A stretch of 22,130 nucleotides of DNA. Source: Oscillospiraceae bacterium (GTDB taxonomy: Bacteria; Bacillota_A; Clostridia; Oscillospirales; Ruminococcaceae). The notes under the pieces are model-generated. The model worked only from the letters and a program-made list of their open reading frames with translations, was not told where the DNA came from and searched no databases. The stretch spans positions 1 through 22,130 of the forward strand of contig JAFWUX010000179.1 of assembly GCA_017523995.1 (NCBI GenBank), in the 5' to 3' direction. Positions 1,620-14,111 of this stretch are shown here, one piece after another. The translations under genes were made by a program, and so were the position numbers. Numbering within the stretch: the stretch's first letter is position 1; each line of letters opens with the position of its first letter.

Positions 1620-3539
1620 TTAAGCCTCCTCAAGCAGAATCATCTGCTCGAGCAGTTCATCCTGCCGCAGCCGGATCTCCTCCAGTCTGCTGCAGAGCTG
1701 CTGCATCTTTTCGTAGTCGCCCGTGACGGATTCATCCGAGAGCGATTTCTGCAGCGTATCCTGTTCCTCCTGCAGTGCGTCGATCTCCTGTTCAAGCCGC
1801 TTGATCTCCGCGCGGCGCTTTGCCTCGAGGCTGCGCTGCTCCTTTGAGCGGTAGCCAGCCTTCTGCGCCTCGGCGGCTTTGCGCTGCTTTTCTTCGGCAG
1901 CGGCAGCCTGCTCTGCCTCGGTGCGGCGGCGAATCTGCTCCTGATAGGCGGAGAACTTTCCCTTATAGGGCGTCAGGGTGCCGTTTTCAAGCACAAAGAG
2001 CTGATCGGCAAGCCGCTCCAGCAGATAGCGGTCATGGCTGACAAACAGGATGGTTCCGTCAAATTCGCTGAGTGCCTGTTCTAAGATTTCTTTCGTTGTC
2101 AGATCGAGATGGTTTGTCGGTTCGTCAAGCAGCAGGACATTGCCGTGCTCGAGCATGAGGATCGCAAAACAGAGCTTTGCGCGCTCGCCGCCGGAGATCA
2201 CGCCCGTTTCCTTAAAGACGTTTTCGCCCGTCAGGCGCACCTGCCCGAGCAGACTGCGCACCTCAAAATCGCTGAGCGCCGGATAGCGGTCATGCAGCTC
2301 ATCGAATACGGTCGCATAGGGGTTGAGGCTCTCGCTCTCCTGCTCAAAGCAGCCGAGCCGCGTGCCGGATGCCCAGCGGACAACGCCCTTGTGCGGCAGA
2401 ATATTCCGCAGCACCTTGAGCAATGTCGATTTGCCCGCGCCGTTCTCGCCGATGATACCGATCTTATCGCCGCGGCGCACCGTAAAGGAGAGATTCTCCA
2501 TCAGCGTTTTCTGCATTGTGCCCGTCCCGACGGTCAGGTCGATATTCCGGACCTCGAGCAGGTCAATCGGCGGCACCACGCTGTATGTAAACGAAAGCTT
2601 CGCCGATTTTGCCGCTGCATAGGGCTTTTCGATGCGCTCCATTCTCTCGAGCTGTTTCTCGCGCGATTTCGCGGATTTTGCAGTCGAGGCGCGCACCTTG
2701 TTCCGTGCAACATAATCCTCGAGCTTTGCGATCTCGCGCTGCTGTGCTTCATATTCCTTCTGCTGCCGCTCACGGGATTCGGCGCGCAGCTTGGTAAAGG
2801 CAGTATAATTGCCCTTGTAGCGCGTCAGTTCGCCGTGCTCGAGCTCGCAGATGCTCGTGCAGAGCCGGTCAAGGAAAAAGCGGTCATGGCTGACGATCAG
2901 CAGCGCGCCGCGCCATGTTTTGAGATAATCCTCAAGCCAGCCGACGGTCTGGAAATCCAGATGGTTCGTCGGCTCGTCCAGAATCAGCAGATCGGGCGCT
3001 TCGAGCAGCAGCTTGCAGAGTGCAAGGCGTGTCTTTTCGCCGCCGGAAAAACCGGAGATCTGCCGCGGCAATGTGTCCTCGCCGAAGCCCATGCCGTAGA
3101 GCACCGTCCGGATGCGGACATCTGTCGTATAGCCGTCATTGATCTCGAAAAATGCGGAAAGCCGCGCATATTCATCGAGCTCCTCCGCGGAGAGACCTGC
3201 CTCCATTTTCGATTCCAGCGCCTGCATGATCTCTTTCGCCTCGTGCAGATGCGAGAAGGCATCGTTCATCTCCTCGAGGACGGTTTTGCTGCCGTCGAGC
3301 CCTGCATTCTGCGCAAGATAGCCGATCCGGAGATTGGCGGCTTTTGCAATCGCAGGCTCATCGTGCTCAAAGGCATCGGGCAGCTCCTGCTCTGTCAGGA
3401 TGCGCAGAAAGGTACTCTTTCCGCAGCCGTTGTCGCCCACAAGACCGATCCGGTCCTGATTCTCAACGGTCAGGCTGACCGAGCGCAGCACATGATGATC
3501 CTGATAAAATTTGTGTATTCCGGTGCATGATATCAGCAT
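1620..3539 (-). CDS. ABC-F family ATPase (YdiF/Uup-like ribosome-associated protein)
   Basis: A 639-residue protein with two ABC ATPase domains and no membrane domain, the ABC-F layout. Domain 1 has Walker A GDNGCGKST (residues 35-43), signature FSGGE (164-168), Walker B LLILDEP (184-190) and a switch His in SHD (218). A charged linker occupies about 248-320. Domain 2 has GENGAGKST (364-372), ISGGE (448-452), LLLDEP (469-474) and SHD (His 502). A long charged coiled coil (about 540-639) follows, as in YdiF and Uup types. ABC-F proteins bind the ribosomal E site and act in translation; some protect against antibiotics. The linker shows nothing that marks this as a resistance factor. The ATG at 3539 has GAGGT upstream. 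It follows the ADP-ribosylglycohydrolase gene by 61 bp, a gap containing a small hairpin (3569-3583). Confidence 0.93.
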   Translation of the reverse strand: MLISCTGIHKFYQDHHVLRSVSLTVENQDRIGLVGDNGCGKSTFLRILTEQELPDAFEHDEPAIAKAANLRIGYLAQNAGLDGSKTVLEEMNDAFSHLHEAKEIMQALESKMEAGLSAEELDEYARLSAFFEINDGYTTDVRIRTVLYGMGFGEDTLPRQISGFSGGEKTRLALCKLLLEAPDLLILDEPTNHLDFQTVGWLEDYLKTWRGALLIVSHDRFFLDRLCTSICELEHGELTRYKGNYTAFTKLRAESRERQQKEYEAQQREIAKLEDYVARNKVRASTAKSAKSREKQLERMERIEKPYAAAKSAKLSFTYSVVPPIDLLEVRNIDLTVGTGTMQKTLMENLSFTVRRGDKIGIIGENGAGKSTLLKVLRNILPHKGVVRWASGTRLGCFEQESESLNPYATVFDELHDRYPALSDFEVRSLLGQVRLTGENVFKETGVISGGERAKLCFAILMLEHGNVLLLDEPTNHLDLTTKEILEQALSEFDGTILFVSHDRYLLERLADQLFVLENGTLTPYKGKFSAYQEQIRRRTEAEQAAAAEEKQRKAAEAQKAGYRSKEQRSLEAKRRAEIKRLEQEIDALQEEQDTLQKSLSDESVTGDYEKMQQLCSRLEEIRLRQDELLEQMILLEEA

Positions 3540-3600
3540 ACGGTCAACCTCATTCGTAATGTATTGCTGCGGGCGGTGCCCGCTGTTTCTATGGTCTCAT

Positions 3601-4683
3601 TCAAAGGGCAAGGAGCGCATCCGCGGTCTCGCAGAGCAGCGGCACGCCCTCCAGCGAAGCGGTAAACGCCGCCGGAATGCCGGAAAGTCCCAGCCTTGCG
3701 CCGAGGATATTGCCCGCGATCGCGCCGGTCGAATCGCTGTCGCCGTCATGATTGACCGCAGCGATCAGGCAGCCGTCAAAATCATCCTGATAGCGCAGTG
3801 CGCAGTACAGCGCGACGGCAAGCGCCTCCTCGCCGACCCAGCCTTCGCCGAGCGCAGCGATCGCCTCGTGATCGGTGCAGGTATCGTCCGCAGCAAAGCG
3901 GAGCGCCCGCTCCGTCAGGTTCCGGAGTGCCGGCAGATACGGCTTTGCAGCGGGAATTTTCTCAAACATGCGGTCTGCGGCATCCAGCGCGTGCGCCGTG
4001 ACAGTTTCCAGCGGCTGATCGGTTTTCGCCGCGCCGTAAACCAGATACGAGAGCACACCTGCCGGCATATATCCGAGCGGATGCCCGTGTGTCAGGACGG
4101 CAGCCTCCGCACCCAGAAGCATCGCTTCTTCGGGGGATGCCGCATAGAGCCCTGCCGGTGCCGTGCGCATGATGCCGCCGCAGCCCTTGCTGTTGTTGAG
4201 CGGCGCGGAAAAGCTGCCCTGTCCGCCCGATTCCAGCGCTGTCAGGCAGGTGTTGCCCGGCGCACGGCGCGCGTAGAGCCAGCGCTCCTCCATCAGGCGC
4301 GGGACAAAATGCCCATCGCGTTCCGGCAGATCGCCGCCCTGCACCTTGCGGAACGGGTGCGGCGCAAATTCGTTTTGCTGCGTAAAGAGCCAGTCGAGAT
4401 AGGCTCTCCGGATGCATTCCTGCTCCGGCAGCGGTTCGCCGCTCTGACGCAGCGCCGCACACCGCAGCAGACCGCCCGCCGTAAAGAGCGTCATCTGCGT
4501 ATCATCGGTGACGAGCGCTTTATCAAAGCCCTTGAACAGATCATATCCGGTGATGCCGAATGTGCCGTAGCGGCTGCGGATTTCAGTCTCATGCTGAAAC
4601 TCGACCGGATAGCCGAGTGCATCGCCTGCCGCGCCGCCGACCAGACAGCCGCGGAAGCGGTCGCGCAATAATCGTTTGTTCAT
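3601..4683 (-). CDS. ADP-ribosylglycohydrolase family protein (DraG/ARH-like)
   Basis: A 360-residue cytosolic protein of the ADP-ribosylglycohydrolase fold. Visible motifs are GAAGDALGYPVEF (17-29), the metal-binding TDDTQM (59-64), NNSKGCGGIMR (163-173) and NHDGDSDSTGAIAGNILGA (311-329), which supplies the second set of metal ligands. Members hydrolyse ADP-ribose linked to proteins, nucleic acids or small molecules, using two Mg or Mn ions. The substrate here cannot be read from sequence. Its ribosome binding site, AGGTGG, is formed by the last codons (K-V-E) of a duplicated GH13 tail that ends 3 bases before this ATG. Before the array expanded, the GH13 stop codon would therefore have lain almost against this start. 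It is probably translated from the same message as the GH13 gene. Confidence 0.92.
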   Translation of the reverse strand: MNKRLLRDRFRGCLVGGAAGDALGYPVEFQHETEIRSRYGTFGITGYDLFKGFDKALVTDDTQMTLFTAGGLLRCAALRQSGEPLPEQECIRRAYLDWLFTQQNEFAPHPFRKVQGGDLPERDGHFVPRLMEERWLYARRAPGNTCLTALESGGQGSFSAPLNNSKGCGGIMRTAPAGLYAASPEEAMLLGAEAAVLTHGHPLGYMPAGVLSYLVYGAAKTDQPLETVTAHALDAADRMFEKIPAAKPYLPALRNLTERALRFAADDTCTDHEAIAALGEGWVGEEALAVALYCALRYQDDFDGCLIAAVNHDGDSDSTGAIAGNILGARLGLSGIPAAFTASLEGVPLLCETADALLAL

Positions 4684-4686
4684 GAT

Positions 4687-4962
4687 TTACATTTCCACCT
4701 TGACTCCTGCGAACCCATACGGCGGGCAGGCAGTGCCTGCATCCATTTTGATGGTCCTCATCATCACGCAGCTACAGTTTACATCTCTACCTTCACTGCC
4801 GCGAACCCATACGGCGGGCAGGCAGTGCCTGCATCCATTTTGATGTCCCTCATCATCACGCAGCCACAGTTCACATCTCTACCTTCACTGCTGCAAAACC
4901 ATACGGCGGGCAGGCAGTGCCTGCATCCATTTTGATGTCCCTCATCATCACGCAGCTACAGT
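4687..4962. repeat. Array A: three 92-bp tandem units carrying copies of the GH13 gene tail
   Basis: Exactly three 92-bp units (276 bp) fill the gap between the GH13 stop and the next gene. In GH13 sense each unit holds a spacer, the palindromic core and a copy of the last 12 codons and stop of the GH13 gene. Cores (GCAGGCAGTGCCTGC on the plus strand) are at 4726-4740, 4818-4832 and 4910-4924. Each unit also has a 19-residue minus-strand ORF, MDAGTACPPYGFAAVKVEM, preceded by GAGGG at about 8 bases: 4871-4930, 4779-4838 and 4687-4746 (the last with A to G at one residue). The four gene tails, including the native one, differ at nine base positions. Eight of these keep the amino acid or the stop. 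The first copy also supplies the ribosome binding site of the next gene. Confidence 0.95.
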
Positions 4963-6837
4963 TTACATCTCCACCTTAACTGCCGCGAAACCATAGGGCG
5001 GGAGGATGACATCATTGCCGTTGATTTCGCCGTGCAGAACCTTGAACATCTTGTAGCGGTCATTGAACGGCGTTTTGTCCACGCCGAACACAACCTTGTG
5101 ATCCGAACGGTTCAGCGCAATGACCATTGCCTTGCGCCGCTGATCGCGATACCGCGCAAACACGATGTAATCATCGTCGAGCGTCAGGAATTTCAGCGCG
5201 CCGTCCACAAAAACCTTGGAGCTGTGGCGGATGCGCGAAAGCTCCTTTGTGAATTCAATCAGATCCCAGTCCTCATGTCCCCACGGGAAGCAGCGGCGGT
5301 TGAACGGGTCGCCGTAGCCGTCCAGACCCGCCTCATCGCCGTAATAGATGCTCGGCACGCCGGGCAGGAAGAACTGCAGCACCATCGCGGCTTTCAGCTT
5401 CTTCTTGCCGATGTCATACTGCTGCGGATTGAGCCGGCGCTCCGCCTGCCAGTCCTTGTTTCTGCCGTTTGCGGGCTCGCCGCCGAACACGGTAATCGCG
5501 CGCTCGATATCATGTGTCGAGACAAAGTTCATCAGCACATCCGAGACGCACTTCGGATAGTTTTCGAGGATTGTCATGATGCTGTTGCGGAAATCATAGG
5601 GGCTGCAGCCGCCGAGATACTGCATGATCGCGCTGTGGAACGGATAGTTCATGACGGAATCAAGCTGATTGCCCAGCAGATAGCGCCGCCGGACGCCGTA
5701 AGCCTCTTTTGTCGAAGCATCCTCCCAGACCTCGCCGATGATGATATGATCGCCGTCCGCCGCCTTGACGCAGTCATGCAGATGATCGAGGAAGGCATCC
5801 GGCAGCTCGTCGGCAACATCCAGACGGAAGCCCGCCGCGCCGAGACTCATCCAGTATTCGAGCACGCCGCCCTTGCCGCAGATGTAGTCGGTGTATTCCG
5901 GCTCGTTTTCGTTGACATTCGGGAGCGTATCAATGCCCCACCACGCCTCGTAGACATCGGGATAGTGGTGGAAGCTGTACCATTTGTAATAGGGGCTCTC
6001 CTTCGAGTTATAGGCACCGAGCGTCTGATAGCGGCAGAACTTGTTGAAGTAGATGCTGTCCGCACCGGTGTGCGAAAAAACGCCGTCGAGAATCACGCTG
6101 ATGCCGTATCTTGCCGCCTCGGTGCAGAGCCGTGCAAAATCCTGATTGGTGCCGAGCAGCGGATCGACCTTGCGGTAGTTTGCGGTGTTGTAGCGGTGGT
6201 TCTCATGCGCTTCAAAGATCGGGTTGAGATAGATGCAGGTGACACCGAGCGATTCCAGATACTCGAGCTTCTGCACAATGCCCTCGAGGTCGCCGCCGAA
6301 GTAATCGTTGTTCCAGACATGCCCGTTCTGATCGGGACGGTACCACGGTGTGCCGCCCCAGTCCTCGCGCAGCACACGGTCATTCGGGACATCCTCATGC
6401 GGCAGACCGCTCCGGCAGAAGCGGTCAGGGAAAATCTGATACATCACGCCGCCCTTGAGGAAATCCGGCGTTTTGAAGGCTTCGTCATAGACCGTGAGCT
6501 GAAAGAGCTCGCCCTCGCCGACAACGCCCTCATGCGCGGCGGCCTTCTTGATATAGAACCACTGACCGCCGGAAATATACGAGAAGTAGTAATAATGCAC
6601 GCCGGGGAATTTTGCGGAGCAGGTCGCCGAATAAAACACCTGCCCGTTGCTTTCGGTGACGGTGTTCATCGGGATAAAGCGTTCCTTCATCCCGGGGCGG
6701 TAGAGCACGAGCATCGGGTTTGTGTCGAGTTTTACCGATTCCGGCAGGCAGATTGTGAACGTACACGGCTCATTCTGCCGCAGTGCGCCGAATACCGATT
6801 TATACGTGCGGTCCCAGCTGTCATATACTTTTCTCAT
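4963..6837 (-). CDS. Cytosolic GH13 alpha-glucan hydrolase (neopullulanase/cyclomaltodextrinase type)
   Basis: A 624-residue GH13 enzyme without signal peptide, expected to cleave alpha-1,4 links in maltodextrins, cyclodextrins or pullulan inside the cell. An N-terminal beta-sandwich domain (about 1-120) precedes the barrel. GH13 regions are visible: DGVFSHTG (251-258), GFRLDVADE (336-344, nucleophile Asp340), GEVWED (368-373, acid/base Glu369) and STHD (440-443, Asp443). The motif YEAWWGIDTLPNVNE (296-310) is typical of neopullulanase and cyclomaltodextrinase types. The C-terminal beta domain ends in ILPPYGFAAVKVEM. GAGGT lies upstream of the ATG at 6837. The gene follows glgP, so the pair fits intracellular glycogen/maltodextrin breakdown. 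The exact substrate cannot be told apart. Its 3' end is the source, or product, of the adjacent tail-copy array. Confidence 0.93.
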   Translation of the reverse strand: MRKVYDSWDRTYKSVFGALRQNEPCTFTICLPESVKLDTNPMLVLYRPGMKERFIPMNTVTESNGQVFYSATCSAKFPGVHYYYFSYISGGQWFYIKKAAAHEGVVGEGELFQLTVYDEAFKTPDFLKGGVMYQIFPDRFCRSGLPHEDVPNDRVLREDWGGTPWYRPDQNGHVWNNDYFGGDLEGIVQKLEYLESLGVTCIYLNPIFEAHENHRYNTANYRKVDPLLGTNQDFARLCTEAARYGISVILDGVFSHTGADSIYFNKFCRYQTLGAYNSKESPYYKWYSFHHYPDVYEAWWGIDTLPNVNENEPEYTDYICGKGGVLEYWMSLGAAGFRLDVADELPDAFLDHLHDCVKAADGDHIIIGEVWEDASTKEAYGVRRRYLLGNQLDSVMNYPFHSAIMQYLGGCSPYDFRNSIMTILENYPKCVSDVLMNFVSTHDIERAITVFGGEPANGRNKDWQAERRLNPQQYDIGKKKLKAAMVLQFFLPGVPSIYYGDEAGLDGYGDPFNRRCFPWGHEDWDLIEFTKELSRIRHSSKVFVDGALKFLTLDDDYIVFARYRDQRRKAMVIALNRSDHKVVFGVDKTPFNDRYKMFKVLHGEINGNDVILPPYGFAAVKVEM

Positions 6838-12615: not shown

Positions 12616-13837
12616 GCCTGAGCTGCTCGCGCCCGCCGGCGATGCCGAATGCTTTGCAGCCGCGCTGCAGTTCGGCGCAGATGCCGTCTATGTCGGCGCG
12701 AAGGAATACGGCATGCGTGCCGCAGCAAAAAACTTCGATTTTGACGCGCTGCAGAAGGCAGTGCAGCAGGCGCACAAGCAGGGCGTTCTCGTCTACCTGA
12801 CGGCGAATGTCCTGCCGCGCAACAAGGAAATGGATGCATTTCCGGAATTCATCAAACATATCGAATCGTGCGGCGTTGATGCAGTCATCGCCGCCGATCT
12901 CGGTGTCATCACACAGATCCGCGCCCTTGCGCCGAAGCTGACTGTTCACGCTTCCACGCAAACGGGCGTGGTCAATTATCAGACCGCAAACGCGCTTTAT
13001 GCACTCGGCGTGAAGCGTGTTGTCCTGGCGCGCGAGCTTTCGATCGCGGAAATTGCGGAGCTCCGTGCAAAAACGCCTTCCGATCTCGAGATTGAGGTCT
13101 TTGTCCACGGCGCAATGTGCATGAGCATCTCGGGGCGCTGCCTGCTCTCGGAATATCTGACCGGCAGAGACGCAAACCGCGGCGCCTGTGCGCAGTCCTG
13201 CCGCTGGAAATATGCGCTGATGGAGGAAAAACGTCCCGGGCAGTATTTCCCTGTGGACGAGGATTCCGACGGCAGCTATATCCTCAACGCAAAGGATCTC
13301 TGCCTGCTGCCCTATCTGAAGGAGCTTGCAGAGGCAGGCGTCGATTCGGTCAAGATCGAGGGCAGAGCAAAAGCCGCCTATTATGTCGCGGGCGTGACGA
13401 ACGCCTACCGCATGGCGCTCGACTGCCTCTTTGATACACCGCCGCGCCCCGTGCCAGAGTGGGTCATGCAGGAGTTGAACAATGTCAGCCACCGCCCCTA
13501 TACCGTCGGGTTTGCCTTCGGGCAGCGCAAGGATCTCATCTGGCAGGAGGAAAACGGCTACATCCGCGATTTCGAGGTCATCGGCATTGTGCAGAAGCAG
13601 GAGAACGGCAGACTCTATGTCAGCCAGCGCAACCGCTTCTTTGCCGGTGATACGGTTGAAGTCCTCATGCCGCAGCAGAAGCCGCTGACGCTGACCGTCA
13701 CCGACCTCAAAAACGGCGAGGGCGAACCGATTGAAGCCGCCAATCACGCCGTCATGGACTGCTCATTCCTCTGCAGCGAATATGTGCCGGAAGGTGCATT
13801 CGTCCGCAAGCAGGCAGTGCCTGCATCCAATTCCTAA
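12602..13837 (+). CDS. U32 family peptidase / tRNA 5-hydroxyuridine synthesis protein (TrhP-like)
   Basis: A 411-residue U32 protein. The N-terminal ELLAPAGDAECFAAALQFGADAVY (7-30) and the signature EVFVHGAMCMSISGRCLLS (165-183) are clear. Cys173, Cys180, Cys196 and Cys200 form the usual four-Cys set, seen as iron-sulfur ligands in related proteins. Family members TrhP/YegQ and YrrN/YrrO make 5-hydroxyuridine at the tRNA wobble position using prephenate; the collagenase name is historical. The start at 12602 overlaps mltG and has only a weak upstream site, so coupling is likely. The last residues, QAVPASNS, come from the palindromic core of the adjacent array. The original C-terminus may have been altered by it (inference). 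Confidence 0.92.
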   Translation: MAKVKPELLAPAGDAECFAAALQFGADAVYVGAKEYGMRAAAKNFDFDALQKAVQQAHKQGVLVYLTANVLPRNKEMDAFPEFIKHIESCGVDAVIAADLGVITQIRALAPKLTVHASTQTGVVNYQTANALYALGVKRVVLARELSIAEIAELRAKTPSDLEIEVFVHGAMCMSISGRCLLSEYLTGRDANRGACAQSCRWKYALMEEKRPGQYFPVDEDSDGSYILNAKDLCLLPYLKELAEAGVDSVKIEGRAKAAYYVAGVTNAYRMALDCLFDTPPRPVPEWVMQELNNVSHRPYTVGFAFGQRKDLIWQEENGYIRDFEVIGIVQKQENGRLYVSQRNRFFAGDTVEVLMPQQKPLTLTVTDLKNGEGEPIEAANHAVMDCSFLCSEYVPEGAFVRKQAVPASNS

Positions 13838-14073
13838 AGCTTTCCGGCAGCGTCCGGAGTTCACAATTCGTTATTCCTAAAATGGGATTCCAAAGGGACA
13901 GGCAGTGCCTGCATCCAATTCCTAAAGCTTTCCGGCAGTGTCCGGAGTTCACAATTCGTTATTTCTAAAATGGGATTCCAAAGGGGCAGGCAGTGCCTGC
14001 ATCCAATTCCTAAAGCTTTCCGGCTGCGTCCGGAGTTCACAATTCGTTATTTCTAAAATGGGATTCCAAAGGG
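13810..14073. repeat. Array B: three 88-bp tandem units at the 3' end of the U32 gene
   Basis: Three 88-bp units, about 97% identical. Each begins with the core GCAGGCAGTGCCTGC (13810-13824, 13898-13912 with one change, 13986-14000), then ATCCAATTCCTAA and a 60-base AT-richer stretch ending in AAATGGGATTCCAAAGGG. The first unit contains the U32 stop. After the third unit the flank is followed by unrelated CAATGTCCC. Units 2 and 3 are spanned by 28-residue ORFs starting MGFQR and ending TIRYF (13882-13968, 13970-14056), without ribosome sites. The next such ATG (14058) is in frame with the radical SAM gene. The core and its downstream ATCCA are the same as in array A, on the same DNA strand. 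Confidence 0.95.
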
Positions 14074-14111
14074 GCAATGTCCCATTATCAATCCGCCGGA
14101 GGCACCTCTAT

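Follow-up and report, generated by a model that had tools for sequence, protein, structure and literature searches.

A gene of the GH13 alpha-amylase family is followed, in a 22,130-nucleotide stretch of Oscillospiraceae DNA (hereafter the window), by three tandem copies of its own 3' end, and these differ from one another and from the native end almost only at synonymous sites. The reading that we favor, with a probability of roughly 60%, is that a dispersed palindrome seeded a tandem repeat and that unequal recombination between lineages then added units to it and made them diverse, such that the repeated gene ends, or tails, would be former or foreign coding ends of GH13.

The array was delineated with TRF at positions 4686-5002 (period 92, 3.4 copies, 91% matches), and a separate repeat search placed the starts of the unit copies at 4686, 4778 and 4870. 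Read on the minus strand, in the orientation of GH13, the order is GH13 body-T0-S0-T1-S1-T2-S2-T3-ATC-ADPRGH, where ADPRGH is the neighboring ADP-ribosylglycohydrolase gene, each tail (T) comprises 39 nt (12 codons and a stop) and each spacer (S) 53 nt (Table 1). T0, T1 and T2 translate to PPYGFAAVKVEM and T3 to PPYGFAGVKVEM, each followed by the stop; T3 includes AAGGTGGA, upstream of the ADPRGH start. An initial annotation, made from the window alone, had proposed that each unit repeats the last 12 codons and stop of GH13, and this was borne out by the 39-nt tails and the 92-bp period; the span that it gave, 4687-5001, runs exactly from T3 to T0. The palindromic end of the spacer and the second array built on that palindrome, both described below, are additions to it. 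Its separation of 276 bp is that between the stops of GH13 and T3; between the GH13 gene and the ADPRGH ATG lie 279 bp (4684-4962). As this equals 3 x 92 + 3, the layout free of the array would be the GH13 stop, 3 nt, and the ATG.

Table 1. Coordinates of the GH13 array, its neighbors and a second core-containing array in the window.
Feature	Positions	Strand	Remarks
ADP-ribosylglycohydrolase (ADPRGH) gene	3601..4683	-	PF03747, E 4.6e-67; segment far nearer to L003/L004 than its flanks
T3, third extra tail	4687..4725	-	One Ala>Gly; 2 nt from second tail of L003
S2 spacer	4726..4778	-	2 differences vs S0
T2, second extra tail	4779..4817	-	1 nt from G003/G004 coding tail
S1 spacer	4818..4870	-	Identical to L003 spacer
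T1, first extra tail	4871..4909	-	Stop TGA; matches none of 20 coding tails compared
S0 spacer	4910..4962	-	Final 20 nt (4910-4929) = dispersed palindromic core TGGATGCAGGCACTGCCTGC
T0, native coding tail	4963..5001	-	12 codons + TAA
GH13 alpha-amylase-family gene, 3' end repeated	4963..6837	-	PF00128, E 1.6e-50; ORF
Second array	13810..14076		88-bp period, 3 copies, same core

Alignment of T0 to T3 revealed nine variable columns, eight of which keep the residue or stop and one of which (GCA/GGA, in T3 only) does not, in agreement with the count made earlier. A random single change in a tail would be synonymous in 23-30% of cases, and the comparison of synonymous with non-synonymous change that had been put forward as a check gave, for the observed 8 of 9, p = 1.9e-4 at an expectation of 0.27, a value that treats the columns as independent and derives from tails only 39 nt long. 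The three spacers vary at 3 of 53 columns. Set against these, 8 of the 13 tail sites capable of synonymous change are variable (Fisher p = 2.9e-5), as are 9 of all 39 tail columns (p = 0.025). The former contrast assumes a spacer without special constraint and would weaken if the spacer is constrained; its last 20 nt are a conserved repeat core.

The tails were compared with the coding ends of relatives. The genus of G003 is represented by 30 genomes, of which 28 matched the query stretch and 27 had a GH13 end that could be viewed; the coding tails of 20 of these were used, the seven more diverged being omitted. The GH13 array was found at two of the 27 ends, those of G003 and G004 (loci L003 and L004), with one unit each versus three in the window, and unit number, which was to be counted across relatives as a check, varies between genomes. 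The array is consequently informed by three genomes; all assemblies are drafts, and since L003 and L004 are titled as metagenome-assembled genomes (MAGs), mixing of strains could have added or altered units. A single base separates T2 from the coding end of GH13 in G003 and G004, and four separate it from the native T0, so that at least one copy looks like the genuine end of the gene in a different lineage; this comparison directly supports T2 as a probable former or foreign coding end. Among the 20 congeneric coding tails, the nearest to T1 has 5 differences and the nearest to T3 has 6; T3 lies two bases from the second tail of G003 and G004. The earlier proposal that each tail was, or can become, the true gene end is hence supported in part, by T2 as a probable former end, and finds no such counterpart for T1 and T3, and it is by extension that we infer former coding status for T0, T1 and T3.

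All four window tails read GFA, as do those of G003 and G004 (also G010 and G020), whereas G001 and G002, which hold the nearest GH13 proteins (98 and 96%) and lack the array, read GFV; for this reason, T0 too may have been imported. Behind the GH13 stop in G002, an apparent copy of the same repeat family was recognized by eye in the opposite orientation. GH13 proteins ending in GFAG were sought as a source of T3, and the 120 proteins listed, out of 597 homologues, included none. The sequence CCGGTATGGTTTTGCGGAG in arrays of G007 and G030 resembles T1 by eye, but its context is different and it was taken as chance. The close GH13 homologues P0002-P0005 (632 residues) end in VKVEQVLNHLNTK and not in VKVEM, and alternation of A and V is seen at the same tail residue.

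An indication of exchange between lineages came from the genes on either side of the array. When the window and L003 were compared block by block at third codon positions, GH13 gave identities of 0.58-0.82 and ADPRGH 0.90-1.00, and in 200-nt blocks the overall identity is 93.5-97.5% in the six blocks covering 3601-4800, 83-91% in GH13, and 88-90% in three blocks of the ABC-F gene (3001-3600). With L001, identity reaches 94-98% in the same ABC-F blocks and 90-97% in GH13, and it falls to 86-93% deeper into the ABC-F gene. An ADPRGH remnant with a deletion persists in G001. That GH13 is strongly and ADPRGH little diverged between the window and G003 implies that recombination broke the sequence in or close to the array. 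The block identities indicate that the ADPRGH segment has a recent history unlike that of its flanks, with one break there and one near 3600. The mosaic thereby supports a breakpoint at or near the GH13 array, in line with one of the two routes given in the initial annotation, the swapping of tails by recombination. The ADPRGH gene of G004 (L208; G004:C47:6455-7532) was matched as two pieces in different frames, which suggests a frameshift or an assembly error.

The final 20 nt of the spacer, TGGATGCAGGCACTGCCTGC, constitute a palindromic core that recurs as a pattern of about 20 nt, TGGATGC(A/G)GGCACTGCC(T/C)GC; in a second form, GGATGCGGGCACTGCCC, the pairing of the stem is kept through changes on both sides. 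With a tolerance of two mismatches over 17 nt, 21, 12, 23 and 15 matches (71 in total) were found in four near genomes, some of them apparently within genes, and none in the control. The exact 15-nt stem is present in 25 of the 30 genus genomes, 14 of which have at least 8 copies (maximum 83, in G005; summed control 3). At the family level it was found in 34 of 297 genomes, and wide dispersal was rejected because no more than one or two copies are present in 28 of the 34; the matches in these 28 number 33, compared with 8 for the control summed over all 297 genomes, and may be partly due to chance. Clearly multi-copy genomes outside the genus list are G097 (33), G206 (12) and G120 (6).

Copies of the core occur far from GH13 genes. 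When the whole stretch was used as query against the 30 genomes, further matches at other places covered the core or the ADPRGH end of the query and left the tail and the remaining spacer uncovered. Occurrence of the spacer and tail block unrelated to GH13 genes had been named beforehand as evidence against the initial proposal; it is true of the palindromic part and, by this one search, not of the remainder. A known RNA family for the repeat was rejected, none being recognized in the window at the Rfam gathering threshold. Over 12 loci at E<=1, Rfam returned 11 matches, of which a 5S rRNA and a tRNA at L184 exceeded their cut-offs and nine did not; the best of the latter was to a microRNA model (E 4.5e-4). 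A phage or plasmid origin was likewise rejected, positions 4600-5100 being without match in the viral or plasmid collection; the 17-nt core pattern occurs once in one viral contig. Spread driven by a RAYT was dismissed as well, as the Y1 transposase (PF01797) is encoded by only three of the 30 genus genomes (G002, G015 and G027); it is absent from G003, G004, G005 and G013. In a limited search of the literature, neither this family of palindromes nor a tail array of this kind was found described.

Tandem arrays linked to the core are not confined to GH13. Cores paired at short spacing, in three ranges, were found in 9, 9 and 7 of the 30 genomes and in none of the controls; such pairs may represent separate insertions and not duplications. 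When the window and 119 further loci or stretches were scanned with the core as anchor, 20 tandem arrays were identified, of which three are truncated at the end of a contig. In the 17 uncut arrays, the start falls no more than 3 nt from the 3' edge of the core in 13 cases and the end does so in 11; six end 11-42 nt past the core, including the GH13 array, which begins at a core edge and runs 40 nt beyond the last core (T3). These 17 are not independent of each other, given that several units open with TTATA or an AGCCGCG-like motif (by eye) and that three represent one locus (L227). A fixed unit length of approximately 90 bp was rejected, since core spacings of 31-38 and 106-181 also occur.

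A U32 peptidase gene stops within the first unit of the second window array, and its repeated end is without synonymous variation; L001 has a related single-copy stretch at this locus (by eye). The palindrome there forms the C-terminus of the peptidase (13790-13837), which reads KQAVPASNS in the window and RQAVPASVDRKPAK in L003; ends that lack the core are KQIT in L001 and KRVME in L002. NadC-like ORFs (by eye) at L180 (1645-1684) and L181 (1502-1526) likewise have their ends within or next to the core, and their C-terminal region includes the residues AVPA or AVPG. At L184 (1354-1683), a core array directly adjoins a tRNA gene, which is followed by the 5S rRNA match. In G004, a core array with a unit of 104 bp (L192, 1409-1641) repeats the final codons of a gene resembling those for methyltransferases. 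Its copies differ from the native tail at four bases in three codons, each of which changes the residue, one to an in-frame stop; hence respect for codons is not general among core arrays. The orthologue in G001 has the same YF codons as the L192 copies, suggesting that the copies have kept the older form.

Taken together, these observations are best explained by a process that began with the dispersed palindrome of approximately 20 nt just behind GH13: the block extending from inside the GH13 3' end to the far edge of the palindrome would have become tandem, as other blocks have at other copies in the genus. Judging by the end points of the arrays, it is most likely the palindrome that favors the duplication, in tandem, of sequence up to its edge. 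With 39 bp of GH13 coding sequence in each unit, homology would then be available for unequal recombination between lineages, an exchange that could have carried the ADPRGH segment in either direction and stacked tails that once were coding in different lineages, which would account for their synonymous differences. Both the mosaic and the T2 match support such an exchange of gene ends and of the downstream gene, and unequal recombination would also have caused the expansion.

Replication slippage within one lineage offers an account that needs no foreign DNA: successive duplications would have frozen the then-current tails as the present tail evolved under codon constraint. The single-base difference between T2 and the L003 coding tail and the 11 of 17 uncut arrays that end at the palindrome edge accord with such a history, and within-lineage slippage is possible if the spacers are constrained. 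We nevertheless regard it as rather unlikely, for spacers would be expected to diverge at least as much as synonymous sites (3 of 53 versus 8 of 13 variable), frozen tails should gain non-synonymous changes and T3 alone has done so, and the ADPRGH mosaic requires recombination regardless. Given an outside chance is a different role for the palindrome, as the fixed end of a one-ended duplication that copies variable flanks up to the edge of the palindrome and, at gene ends, would stack replacement tails. The array would then serve as a landing pad in which incoming DNA recombines in any tail, makes the GH13 terminus whole again and imports the gene that follows in the donor, the displaced tails forming a layered record of former alleles.

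That selection on a translated mini-gene keeps the codons appears improbable. A frame of 19 codons (MDAGTACPPYGFAAVKVEM) starts at an ATG within the core and continues through each tail: ATG GAT GCA GGC ACT GCC TGC is in phase with the tail codons, GAGGG precedes it, and the T3 stop lies 3 nt ahead of the ADPRGH ATG, such that translation of ADPRGH could perhaps be coupled to it. However, the seven core codons are unchanged in all copies compared whereas the tail codons vary, it is T3, adjoining ADPRGH, that carries the amino-acid change, and by our reckoning chance alone would not seldom place an in-frame ATG in a stretch of some 17 codons. An artefact in which a metagenome assembler strung together variants of several strains, to which the MAG titles of L003 and L004 lend some credence, is very improbable in that these two separately titled assemblies have the one-unit form in common, the window units differ from one another at several bases, and tandem arrays of the core exist at other loci.

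Should the tails be former gene ends, as the favored recombination of palindrome-seeded repeats would have it, the 317 bp of the array would hold a legible record of how alleles were replaced and would explain how a short repeat beside a gene can facilitate exchange of the neighboring gene with no harm to the protein. The core loci also provide many sites for the study of tandem duplication provoked by a palindrome.

Among known systems, REP elements and their BIME clusters are described as short palindromes in many copies that are sometimes tandemly reiterated with flanking DNA (PMC3733652). The core resembles that description in being a short palindrome, dispersed in many copies over 25 of 30 genomes and found in tandem with its flanks. 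It differs in that the usual partner of REP, the REP-associated Y1 transposase, is restricted to three genus genomes. Among the sequence contexts listed, GGATGC precedes the stem, and inspection by eye gave no sign of a tag of the GTAG or CGTC type. The small dispersed repeats (SDR) of cyanobacteria are outlined as approximately 20 nt in length, maybe tandem, and perhaps mobile (Elhai et al. 2008 as cited in PMC2884548). The core is likened to that outline by its length of about 20 nt, its dispersal and its tandem repetition, but the cyanobacterial hosts of SDR are unlike its own. As with minisatellites or VNTRs, the number of units differs between genomes; in contrast to these, the GH13 units hold the coding end of a gene and differ mainly at synonymous sites. 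Some integrative elements duplicate the 3' end of a gene as att sites and carry a substitute end with synonymous differences. The GH13 array shares with these elements the substitute 3' end and its synonymous differences and is distinguished from them by spacers of 53 nt, too short for a recombinase, and by the tandem arrangement of its units.
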